DNA from: a virus
DNA: 24,840 nucleotides
Virus record (IMG/VR): IMGVR_UViG_3300033146_005244
Span: 1 to 24,840 of that record
Direction: 5' to 3' (one strand)
Shown: positions 9,649 through 20,126 of the stretch, piece by piece
How positions within the stretch are numbered: position 1 is the stretch's first letter
Layout of the letters: each line of letters begins with the position of its first letter
Position numbers and translations under genes: made by a program
The notes under the pieces: model-generated
Told to the model about the DNA's origin: nothing
What the model saw: the letters and a program-made list of their open reading frames with translations, nothing else
Databases searched by the model: none

Positions 9649-10530
9649 ATGCCAACAAAAAAAGAATTAGAACAGGCTACTAATACTCAGAAAATACCAA
9701 AAGCACCTACTATTGATATGAATAAAATATCAAATGTTCCAGCTTCAGTAATGAAAAAAAGAAAATCAGGAAAATTTAACTTTTCAGAAGCTGAAATGGT
9801 TACACTTCCTTCAAAAGGAATTTTATATAAAAATGTTACAAATGATGTTGATATTTTAAATGGTCAGATACAAATGTATCCAATGACAGTTAAAGATGAA
9901 GAAATTTTATCTACCAGTCGTTTTCTTAAATCAGGAGCTGCTACAAGAATGGTTATTGATAATTGCATTGCATCAGATATTGATGCAAAAGATATCCTTT
10001 TATATGATAGTAATTATCTATTGTTTTTTCTTAGAGGTATTTCATATGGTAATGATTATAAATTTAAATTAAAATGTAGCAATTCATCTTGTGGAATGGA
10101 ATTTGATCATACAGTTAAAATTAATGAACTTGAATTTGAAGAATTATCAGAAGATATTAAAGAACCATTTACTGTTGTTCTCCCCAAATGTAAATATAAA
10201 GTAACATTTGTATTACCAAGATTAGCTCATTCAGAAGAAATTTATAATAGAAATAGAAAAAGAAAAAAATCAACTACTGATTCAGATCAGCGAATGGTTG
10301 ATAATTTAATAGTAACAACAATAAAAATTACAGATCCAAATGGTGTAGATGTTCCTATGGGAGATTGGGAAGAATTTTATGAATCATTAGTTGGAATGGA
10401 TAGGGCAGAATTAAATGAAAAAGCAAATTTTTCAACGGGTGTTGATACGCTTGATGGAGTTGTTTGCCCATATTGTGAAACTTCGTATGATGGGAGCATA
10501 CCTATTTCTACTGAGTTTTTTCGGTTTTAA
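9649..10530 (+). CDS. 26: T4 gp26-like baseplate hub / tail-assembly protein
   Basis: This 293-aa protein matches the T4 baseplate (gp26) family pattern. It has a polar N-terminus, then 'MVTLPSKGILYKN' at residues 45-57, 'MYPMTVKDEEIL' near 77, 'DNCIASDIDAKDILLYDSNYLLFFLRGISYG' split across 103-135, and a zinc-binding C-x4-C (CSNSSC, about 142-147). A second CPYC pair is near the end (about 274-277). Members act in tail baseplate assembly; T4 gp26 is shorter, at about 208 aa. The start is fixed by AGGAG ten bases upstream. The stop codon TAA at 10528 sits directly after a TTT codon in a TTTT run, and the +1 frame continues for 57 codons of conserved-looking sequence, suggesting a frameshifted 350-aa product like the two-part tail chaperones of lambda and other phages. 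Confidence 0.75.
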   Translation: MPTKKELEQATNTQKIPKAPTIDMNKISNVPASVMKKRKSGKFNFSEAEMVTLPSKGILYKNVTNDVDILNGQIQMYPMTVKDEEILSTSRFLKSGAATRMVIDNCIASDIDAKDILLYDSNYLLFFLRGISYGNDYKFKLKCSNSSCGMEFDHTVKINELEFEELSEDIKEPFTVVLPKCKYKVTFVLPRLAHSEEIYNRNRKRKKSTTDSDQRMVDNLIVTTIKITDPNGVDVPMGDWEEFYESLVGMDRAELNEKANFSTGVDTLDGVVCPYCETSYDGSIPISTEFFRF

Positions 10531-10702
10531 AGAGGAAAATCTTACTAGAATACAGGAAAGTTTTTTTTACCTCATTAAGTGGGGGTTCTCATATTCTGAC
10601 CTGAGAGATATTCCTGTTTTTGAATACAATAAGTATGTCGCTTTACTTAACCAATATTATAAGGATAAGAAAGAAGCACAAGACAAAATCAATCATAAAT
10701 AA
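10529..10702 (+). CDS. Frame +1 extension of the gp26-like gene (57 codons)
   Basis: Frame 2 is open from 10415 to 10702, overlapping the gp26-like gene by 116 bases. If the ribosome slips forward by one base at TTT(10525-10527)-TAA, the peptide continues KEENLTRIQESFFYLIKWG and then DLRDIPVFEYNKYVALLNQY. That combination (aromatic helix, 'SYSDLRDIPVFEYNKYV') resembles the small ORF that follows gp26 in other T4-like marine phages. No start codon lies inside the plausible domain; ATG 10487 and 10490 exist upstream but lack a ribosome-binding site. An independent short gene is the alternative. Confidence 0.6.
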   Translation, partial: KEENLTRIQESFFYLIKWGFSYSDLRDIPVFEYNKYVALLNQYYKDKKEAQDKINHK

Positions 10703-10740
10703 TTATGATTGATTTTTCAAAAACGAACCGAGAAAAACAA

Positions 10741-10769
10741 TTGACAAAAAAAGAATAATTTGATATAAT
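10741..10769 (+). promoter_or_regulatory. Sigma70-like promoter P1 of the conserved-spacer family
   Basis: TTGACA (10741-10746), a 17-base spacer AAAAAAGAATAATTTGA, and TATAAT (10764-10769). It is nearly identical, including the spacer, to the elements at 10941, 17854 and 21553. Confidence 0.85.
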
Positions 10770-10855
10770 AATTATATGATTGAATTTATAGAATTTATAG
10801 AATATATAATTAATTTTTTATTGTTTATAATAAATAGTATAGAATATTTCATTTC

Positions 10856-10895
10856 AATAGTTTTAATAGAAATAGAATTTTTTATTAAAACTATT
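10856..10895. repeat. 13-bp AT-rich inverted repeat between P1 and P2
   Basis: The arm AATAGTTTTAATA (10856-10868) is the exact reverse complement of 10883-10895, with a 14-base loop. No T-run follows on the plus strand. It could end or stabilise a short P1 transcript, or serve as a protein site. Confidence 0.6.
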
Positions 10896-10940
10896 TCTGT
10901 AAATATACAGTTAATGAAAAATAATCTATTGATTAAATAC

Positions 10941-10969
10941 TTGACAATAAAAGAATAATTTGTTATTAT
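10941..10969 (+). promoter_or_regulatory. Sigma70-like promoter P2 of gp32
   Basis: TTGACA (10941-10946), a spacer ATAAAAGAATAATTTGT of 17 bases, and TATTAT (10964-10969). The predicted start near 10976 is followed at once by a 7-bp hairpin ATAATTC-GTAT-GAATTAT (10973-10990). Confidence 0.82.
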
Positions 10970-13405: not shown

Positions 13406-13726
13406 ATGGCAGAAAAAGAACTTAGAGCACTTGGAGATAGAGTAATAATAAAATTCCAAGAAGTTAAAAAAAAGAAAAGAGTAACTCCGGGTGGAATCGA
13501 ATTAATTGGTGCTAGTGGTGCGAGTGAGGAAAAAGTATTTGAAGCAATAGTTGATACTATTGGGAATAAAATTGATTTGGAAAGTTGTGGATTTAAAGTT
13601 GGAGATTCAATTATTTTTAATGATTATAATATTAAACAATTTGACGTTCCAAATTTAGCAGATCCAATAAATCCAATTAGAAAAGGTATTATTGGTGAAA
13701 GTGATGTTTGGGGTGTATATGAGTAA
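13406..13726 (+). CDS. GroES-like co-chaperonin (gp31 counterpart)
   Basis: The protein has 106 aa. The GroES fold is clear: RALGDRVIIKFQEV at 7-20, the mobile-loop region KRVTPGGIELIGASGAS (24-40) including the GGI-x-L contact with the chaperonin, VGDSIIFNDYNIK (72-84) and the closing strand GESDVWGVYE. It would cap the host GroEL and, as T4 gp31 does, help fold the major capsid protein. It is more like bacterial GroES than T4 gp31. AAGGAG lies five bases upstream. It is four bases upstream of uvsW, so the two are likely co-transcribed. Confidence 0.88.
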   Translation: MAEKELRALGDRVIIKFQEVKKKKRVTPGGIELIGASGASEEKVFEAIVDTIGNKIDLESCGFKVGDSIIFNDYNIKQFDVPNLADPINPIRKGIIGESDVWGVYE

Positions 13727-17940: not shown

Positions 17941-18393
17941 ATGAATTATAACAACATGAATATCAATGAGATATTCGAAAGATTATTTTTGGATATTGAT
18001 GATGTATTTACTACATCAGTAATTCAAAAAGGTGGTGAGATATACCACACACCCAATTTCCCACCAGTAAATATTTTTATCAATGAAGAAAGTAAAGATT
18101 TAACTTTTGAATTTGCAGTAGCAGGTTATGAAAAAGAAGATGCTTTGATAGAATTTAATGGTGATAAAATGATACTTACTATTAAAAGTAACTCAAAAGA
18201 AAAAGAAAAAGAAAAAGAAGGATTAAGAGTTCTAAAAAAAGGTATAAAGAAACCAGATATTAATTCATCTTTTGTGGTTCCTGTTTCTAAATATGAAACA
18301 GATAATTCTGTTGCAGAAATGAAAGATGGGATTTTAACAGTTAAAGTTCCAGCAAAGGATGAAATAAAACCTAAAAGATTAACAATTATTTAA
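17941..18393 (+). CDS. hsp20: Small heat-shock protein, Hsp20 family
   Basis: The protein has 150 aa. A short N-terminal arm (INEIFERLFLDIDDVF) precedes an alpha-crystallin domain of about residues 40-140. This carries PPVNIFINEESKDLTFEFAV, AGYEKEDALIEFNGDKMILT, and the diagnostic end strand KDGILTVKVP, then RLTII. Hsp20 proteins bind unfolding proteins without ATP. They are core genes of many T4-like marine phages, where they are thought to protect assembling virion proteins. GGAGG six bases upstream fixes the start. It has its own promoter (17854) and an excellent terminator (18426), so it is a single-gene unit. Confidence 0.93.
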   Translation: MNYNNMNINEIFERLFLDIDDVFTTSVIQKGGEIYHTPNFPPVNIFINEESKDLTFEFAVAGYEKEDALIEFNGDKMILTIKSNSKEKEKEKEGLRVLKKGIKKPDINSSFVVPVSKYETDNSVAEMKDGILTVKVPAKDEIKPKRLTII

Positions 18394-18467: not shown

Positions 18468-20126
18468 ATGAGTTTTAAATTAATTTCAAAGAAAGAAGTA
18501 ATAGAACCTTTAATAAAAAATAACATTCTTTTAAATGCAAAATCAAATAGTAAACTTTTTTTTAAATGTGTTAAATGTGGAGAAGAAACAAATAAAACTA
18601 TTCAATCATTATCTATGAGAGGATTAAATTATAAAGAAATTGACATTACTGATGAAAGTATTTTTCTTTGTAGAAAGTGTGCTAAAAAATATTTTAACTT
18701 AAAAAAATATGGTGTAGAAAATATTTCTCAATTAGAATCAGTTAAAGAAGCAAAAAGACAAACTTGTCTAAAAAATTTTGGAGTTGAGTACCCTCAGCAA
18801 AATAAAAAAATTCAAAAAAAAACAAAAAGTAATAATTTAAAAAAATATAATGTAACTAATCCAGCAAAATTAGAGGAAAATAAGAAAAAACAGGTTCAAA
18901 CAAAAATTGAGAAATATGGAAGGGTTAATTTACAAAAAGAAAGTCCCTTTTGCAGAAAAGAAGTAAGAGAAAAGTCAAAGCAAACAATGATAAAAAGATA
19001 TGGTTTTGAAAATCCTTTTGCTAATGAAGAAATAAAAAAGAAAATATCACAAAATCATTTTATGACATATTTACCTGTAATTAAAAAAAGATTGCAACAG
19101 CAACAAGTAGAATTATTGGATGATTATAAGGGTTTAAGAATTAAAGATAAAGATATTTATTATAATTTTAAGTGTTTAATTTGTAATACAGAGTTTAAAA
19201 GTAGTATACATTCAAGAGTTCCAAGATGTCCTACCTGTTTTCCTAAATTTATTTCAAGAGCAGAAAAAGAAATAGAAAATTTTATTAAAACTATTTATTC
19301 AGGGAAAATTATTGAAAACGATAGAACTGTTTTAGAGGGTAAAGAATTAGATATTTACTTACCTAATAAAAAAATAGCAATTGAATTTGATGGTTTGTAT
19401 TGGCATAGTGAAAATCAAGGGAAGAACAAAAACTATCACCTTAATAAAACTAAAGTTTGTAATGAAAAAGGAATTTATTTAATACATATTTTTGAAGATG
19501 AATGGTCAGACAAACAAGAAATAGTTAAATCAAGATTAAGTCATTTAATTGGTTTTAATAAATATGAAAGAATTTATGCTAGAAAATGTATTATAAAAGA
19601 AATATCTTCTAAACAAAAAAATATTTTTTTAAACGAACATCATATTCAAGGAGCTGATAAAAGTAAATATAAGTTAGGATTATTTTATAATGATGAATTA
19701 GTTTCTCTAATGACATTTGGAAAAGCAAGAATTGCTTTAGGCAGTAAAAGCGAAGATGATGTTTATGAATTAATTAGATTTGCTTCAAAAAAAAATACTG
19801 TAGTTATCGGTGGAGCAAGTAAACTTTTAAAATATTTTGAAAGGAATATAAAGTGGAAAAAAATCTTTTCATTTTCTGATAAAAGATGGAGTCAGGGAGC
19901 TGTTTATAAGCAACTCGGTTTTAATTTTGAACATACATCAAATCCTAATTATTGGTATCTTGAAAACAATAAACGAGTTCATAGGTATAATTTTAGAAAA
20001 AATGTATTAAATGAAAAATTAGAAAAATTCAATAAAAATTTAACAGAGTGGGAAAATATGAAATTGAATGGTTATAATAGAATATGGGATTGTGGAAATG
20101 ATAAATGGGTTAAAGAAAATATTTAA
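18468..20126 (+). CDS. Hef-type homing endonuclease with Vsr-like (EDxHD) nuclease domain
   Basis: The protein has 552 aa in recognisable modules: a C-x2-C zinc ribbon (C34/C37 with C68/C71), five short repeats of the form K-(Y/F)-G-V-x-N at about 79, 102, 125, 149 and 177, a second zinc ribbon (C236/C239, C254/C257), and a Vsr-like nuclease core. The core has E293-L-D295-IYLP, IAIEFDGLYWHSE (303-315) with E306, D308, H313, and IYLIHIFEDEW. A conserved C-terminal domain contains HHIQGADKSKYKLGLFYN. This is the layout of free-standing phage homing endonucleases of the Hef kind. It would cut a relative's DNA near this locus so that the gene spreads. It starts 10 bases after the hsp20 terminator, with AAAGGA as ribosome-binding site and no promoter of its own. 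Confidence 0.85.
   Translation: MSFKLISKKEVIEPLIKNNILLNAKSNSKLFFKCVKCGEETNKTIQSLSMRGLNYKEIDITDESIFLCRKCAKKYFNLKKYGVENISQLESVKEAKRQTCLKNFGVEYPQQNKKIQKKTKSNNLKKYNVTNPAKLEENKKKQVQTKIEKYGRVNLQKESPFCRKEVREKSKQTMIKRYGFENPFANEEIKKKISQNHFMTYLPVIKKRLQQQQVELLDDYKGLRIKDKDIYYNFKCLICNTEFKSSIHSRVPRCPTCFPKFISRAEKEIENFIKTIYSGKIIENDRTVLEGKELDIYLPNKKIAIEFDGLYWHSENQGKNKNYHLNKTKVCNEKGIYLIHIFEDEWSDKQEIVKSRLSHLIGFNKYERIYARKCIIKEISSKQKNIFLNEHHIQGADKSKYKLGLFYNDELVSLMTFGKARIALGSKSEDDVYELIRFASKKNTVVIGGASKLLKYFERNIKWKKIFSFSDKRWSQGAVYKQLGFNFEHTSNPNYWYLENNKRVHRYNFRKNVLNEKLEKFNKNLTEWENMKLNGYNRIWDCGNDKWVKENI

Follow-up and report, generated by a model that had tools for sequence, protein, structure and literature searches.

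A T4-type tail-assembly chaperone gene with a probable +1 frameshift, and its +1 and -1 counterparts among T4-like phages

Frameshifting in the G-T tail-chaperone genes has been described as widely conserved "except T4" (PMC5009743). In lambda gpG/gpGT and other chaperones of this type (PMC5009743; Pseudomonas phage Adele, PMC12846349), slippage close to the 3' end of the gene yields a short and a long chaperone, and the shift is -1. T4 gp26 and gp51 are PF12322 paralogues, the short and long tail-assembly chaperones, and in T4 each has its own gene, with no frameshift involved. This assignment has already been published (Vladimirov, Gautam and Davidson 2022, as cited in PMC10885494 and PMC12846349). 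According to the papers citing that work, some T4-like phages have one short gene and one long fusion gene (PMC10885494), and -1 signals of the polyT type are already known from T4-like TAC-N genes (PMC12846349). Cyanophages and marine vibriophages carry short "gp51" or "baseplate hub assembly catalyst" ORFs directly after gp26. Cyanophage gp51 lacks the first ~200 residues yet matches the T4 C-terminus, and in Sullivan 2010 (PMC3037559) these ORFs are treated as shortened gp51 genes, with frameshifting unmentioned. In prfB (CUU UGA) and in tsh of Listeria phage PSA (CCC UGA), the P-site tRNA slips by +1 to a codon overlapping the first while a stop occupies the A site, and the tail-chaperone gene of the archaeal myovirus HSTV-2 very likely also shifts by +1 (PMC5009743).

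The locus considered here lies on a 24.8 kb virus contig, referred to as the window (the whole stretch of DNA analysed); it is a genome fragment, and a separate gp51 gene could lie outside it. Its gp32-like, UvsX-like, gp47-like and gp19-like (tube) genes, together with an SMC/Rad50-like gene in the gp46 position, mark the source by sequence as a T4-like myophage. We consider it highly probable (about 0.9), on comparative sequence evidence, that a T4-type tail-assembly chaperone is made in two forms, through +1 frameshifting, from the gene at 9649-10702. It resembles the T4 pair in its PF12322 fold, in the C-terminal tail of the long form and in having a predicted short and long product, but differs in being one gene with a +1 change of frame. 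The direction of the shift, the slip motif and the protein family separate it from lambda gpG/gpGT, and it can be likened to HSTV-2 by direction and gene type only.

Most ribosomes would terminate at 10530, producing the short form (gp26-like, TAC-N), while a fraction would slip one base forward at tandem Phe codons. In the likeliest slip, the tRNA-Phe on UUU (10519-10521) would re-pair with UUC (10520-10522) while a rare CGG codon waits in the A site, and the slipped ribosomes would read the +1 frame to 10702, producing the long form (TAC-NC, 350 aa), in which the helical tail at the C-terminus would correspond to that of T4 gp51. By analogy with lambda gpG/gpGT, both forms would cooperate in tail assembly, acting on the tube and tape measure proteins. 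What we infer is the frameshifting, from comparative sequence, together with its rate, the site used and the chaperone function.

The zero-frame product (9649-10530, plus strand) has 293 aa, matches PF12322 (T4_baseplate, 9e-15) and phrog_150 (4e-19), and is conserved in five close relatives and in distant phages. Its frame ends GAG TTT TTT CGG TTT TAA. The +1-frame extension (10528-10702, plus strand) continues for 57 codons beyond the zero-frame stop to a TAA at 10700-10702, giving the fused product of 350 aa, and contains no ATG, GTG or TTG in the window. Chance does not account for it: an open frame of 56 codons arose in 121 of 20,000 shuffles at the same composition. The five close relatives (L001-L005; IMG/VR contigs from different metagenomes, 80-86% amino acid identity) all keep the TTT, the TAA and the +1-frame extension. 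A sequence-only reading of this DNA had pointed to the ending CGG TTT TAA, to the 57-codon +1 frame without a start codon and to a programmed +1 frameshift analogous to those of tail chaperones. The first two are borne out, the alignment it had proposed finds both stop and frame offset kept in L001-L005, and the frameshift itself is strongly supported by comparative sequence.

The extension evolves as a protein, under coding constraint. Over the last 300 nt of gp26, third codon positions are the most variable (0.77 vs 0.24 and 0.19), and beyond the stop it is the third positions of the +1 frame that vary most (0.90 vs 0.46 and 0.30); read in +1, the extension has a pN/pS of 0.14-0.30. As expected of a gpG/gpGT-like frameshifted chaperone, then, the downstream overlapping frame is kept open and protein-constrained.

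Profile comparison shows homology between the extension and the C-terminal tail of T4 gp51. With hhalign, the window-clade extension matched the extension of the wider +1 family (probability 97.6, E 4e-12, score 59.8), the +1-family extension matched a set of cyanophage extensions and gp51 tails (96.3, 1.6e-9, 48.7), and the window-clade extension matched that gp51-tail set (91.2, 1e-6, 34.3). For the same three comparisons in order, the best of 100 column shuffles scored 19.1, 16.6 and 17.5, and reversed profiles 10.9, 9.6 and 7.0. The +1-extension profile found no direct match to T4 gp51, the link requiring the cyanophage set, and a tblastn search of phages with the extension alone found no match. 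Both T4 gp26 and gp51 match PF12322; there are two copies of this domain in T4, against a single copy in each of the eight other matching phage records, while the score fell under threshold in Mel-JY01 and immuto. The family phrog_634 ("baseplate hub assembly catalyst") matches residues 147-246 of T4 gp51 as well as the cyanophage extension (1e-27). The window gene thus combines the two features of a T4-type chaperone, a PF12322/phrog_150 domain and, in the +1 frame, a gp51-type C-terminal tail. The short cyanophage and vibriophage ORFs are homologous to the extension, but lie in the -1 frame with T TTT TTC, unlike the window's +1 arrangement. Being the extension of gp26 would explain why cyanophage gp51 appears shortened. 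The sequence-only reading had likened the extension to the ORF following gp26 in other T4-like phages; the homology holds, and that ORF proves to be the gp51 tail.

An AF2 model built for the 350-aa fusion from 27 sequences (pLDDT 75.9) shows a gp26-like fold followed by a helical tail with helices at 295-310, 315-319 and 323-347. Its top match among viral predicted structures was the SP-15 gp26-like protein (E 1e-15); a PDB fold search with the same model gave no match at E < 0.001.

A survey of about 175 relatives, in which the loci within a scan are not independent samples, shows two deep groups: a +1 group, usually with TTT TTT TGG CCT, and a -1 group, usually with T TTT TTY. In the first profile scan, for which the best 80 of 461 confirmed loci were used, the extension profile matched in +1 in 77 and in -1 in 3; however, 70 of the 77 are loci from which the profile was built, and its E-values refer to a small set. 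Independently of the profile, the +1 extension reaches 50 codons or more in 73 of these best 80, the others being mostly contig-end cuts or -1. A second scan, which took the window clade as its query, recovered the five relatives already known and 75 further loci. Among the 73 classifiable ones, a -1 extension reaching 50 codons or more is present in 72 and a +1 extension of that length in none, and the junctions inspected read T TTT TTC. The +1 group includes Bacillus SP-15, Listeria LIS04, Streptococcus GXN1, Microcystis Mel-JY01, Flavobacterium immuto, the uncultured phage LR756508 and, weakly, Streptomyces BRock; the -1 group includes cyanophages, Vibrio VH7D, Aeromonas Aswh_1, Agrobacterium Atu_ph07, Xanthomonas XacN1 and others. 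Three changes of shift direction suffice on a quickly built tree with incompletely resolved deep branches.

The sister group, with the -1 version (L115-L189; L100, L104, L109), has AAT TTT TTC G, an early stop and a -1 extension of 71-75 codons, and the short cyanophage "baseplate hub assembly catalyst" CDSs (3199-3390 in L100, 1962-2099 in L104) sit within an extension of this kind. In Pseudomonas Cygsa01 (L102:2072-2982), Salmonella Mooltan and Vibrio K369 (L106, L107), the junction lacks T TTT TTY and is ATT TTC or CTT TTC. Cygsa01 has a TAATG stop-start overlap, where translational coupling may take the place of frameshifting.

The tandem Phe codons TTT TTT (10516-10521, plus strand) form the slip region found throughout the +1 family. 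The second codon (10519-10521) is always YTT: among 87 distinct +1 loci it is TTT in 82, CTT in 5 and TTC in none, although 27% of the other Phe codons of the same genes are TTC. The next base is T or C in 86 of the 87, which therefore have the slippery junction (YTT, then T/C) expected of a frameshifted chaperone. This conservation fits a P-site tRNA that slips by +1 and re-pairs with UUY. The one exception, LIS04 (L007), has an A next, which breaks the re-pairing rule; there the slip may occur on the first Phe codon. A -2 shift, which would lead to the same final frame, was rejected because it pairs poorly in loci with TTC as the first codon or CTT as the second.

Within this region the favoured shift site is TTT|CGG (10519-10524, plus strand), homologous to the position conserved in the whole +1 family. 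The A-site codon there is usually TGG in the family and CGG in 5 of the 6 members of the window clade, CGG being rare in the window (4 of 7,086 codons). With CGG and not AGG in the A site, UUC is offered for re-pairing. A tentative second candidate is the last Phe codon, TTT|TAA (10525-10530, plus strand), where the slip would take place with the stop in the A site, as in prfB and PSA tsh, and give the fusion EFFRFKEE in place of EFFGFKEE. UUU is among the most slippery codons ahead of a stop (PMC10885494), and all 6 clade members keep TTT|TAA, even L004, which has TGC in place of CGG. On the other hand, the wider +1 family has no stop at that position, with TGG the usual A-site codon; the upstream Phe codon keeps its third-position T family-wide; and most bases of TTT TAA are constrained by the +1 frame itself. 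The sequence-only reading had placed the slip at TTT-TAA with the logic of prfB and PSA. A slip there is possible, the slippery codon before a stop being kept throughout the clade, but the family-wide site is two codons upstream, at the TTT|CGG position, where the A site mostly holds UGG (in the window, CGG) and no SD-like stimulator was seen. The likeness to prfB is closest in five distinct family members with CTT TGG C. Among the frameshift readings, the sequence comparison probably favours the upstream site, at about 60:40, and either or both may work.

Readings without ribosomal slippage fare worse. The extension could be translated on its own as a small protein from a short gp51-like gene, by re-initiation or internal initiation. 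Short gp51-like CDSs are indeed annotated in cyanophages and others, and the window has +1-frame ATGs upstream within gp26 (10415 and others), but the close relatives have no open +1 stretch matching that ATG region, L001 and L003-L005 have no +1-frame start codon near the junction, and 38 of 90 surveyed loci have none within 36 nt. As the conserved domain also begins right at the slip codons and is fused to the gp26 fold in T4, we regard separate initiation as improbable. Still less probable is a fused mRNA made by transcriptional slippage on the T run, a reading suggested by the seven consecutive T in most family members (TTTTTTTGG); the run is only 3-4 T in loci with TTC TTT (8 distinct) or TTT CTT (5 distinct), and the window clade has TTTTTTC or TTCTTTC. 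The homopolymer context could likewise point to a recent frameshift mutation or to a mistake in sequencing or assembly, and a single extra T had been named as a caveat. This explanation carries next to no weight: five independent contigs have the same arrangement and most of the family other forms of it, and an error is excluded because the relatives keep the arrangement, the +1 frame is constrained and distant relatives have homologous extensions.

Regarding RNA signals for the proposed +1 shift, a base profile over 89 loci showed no SD-like stimulator upstream of the junction. Downstream of it, the window sequence forms no stable structure (z 0.26), and across the family there is a weak tendency towards structure there (mean z -0.9 vs -0.1 upstream). 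A hairpin with a U-run surrounds the extension stop codon (10685-10716, plus strand; -12.9 kcal/mol, z -6.1), and L001, L003 and L004 have similar hairpins at the end of the extension. From its sequence it is a probable transcription terminator of the unit, as would be expected if the unit ends with the extension; a consensus scan, which needs at least 3 G-C pairs, did not list it.

We think it reasonably likely that a large, deep clade of T4-like chaperone genes uses an undescribed +1 signal, with sister clades using -1 and T4 two genes. If so: the +1 signal would be [U/C]UU followed by U/C, usually with UGG in the A site and without a stop or SD-like stimulator; one protein pair would be kept by three decoding solutions, +1, -1 and two genes; and the short cyanophage "gp51" genes would be the trans-frame part of gp26. 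Most T4-like relatives would then rejoin the tail-chaperone frameshift rule, T4's two genes being a derived or alternative solution. The family would offer a conserved, testable +1 signal with neither a stop nor an SD-like element, and many phage genomes would have corrected annotations for the short "gp51" or hypothetical ORFs that follow gp26. The chaperone assignment and the -1 polyT signal of some T4-like phages were known already. The +1 version is new as far as we have found, our literature search having returned no +1 case in the T4-type chaperone family, with Vladimirov 2022 represented by the papers citing it. The novelty claimed in the sequence-only reading therefore stands for the +1 direction, which is not confined to one phage and has a -1 version in cyanophages, vibriophages and others.

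The surroundings of the gene vary. In the window it adjoins neither the tail tube nor the tape-measure gene, while the LIS04 homologue is annotated between these two. In immuto the tape-measure gene is next downstream with one small ORF between, and the SP-15 homologue is followed by a putative tail protein. No tRNA genes were found in the 24.8 kb window. A 60-aa Ile-rich ORF (10776-10958) lies between the chaperone gene and the gp32-like gene, with a perfect-consensus sigma-70-type promoter match upstream of it (10741-10769). The same contig also encodes a GroES-like protein (13406-13726; PF00166, 2e-7), an Hsp20-family protein (17941-18393; PF00011, 5e-9) and a DUF7487-containing protein (18468-20126; PF24308, 2e-22), the last possibly a homing endonuclease by its appearance.
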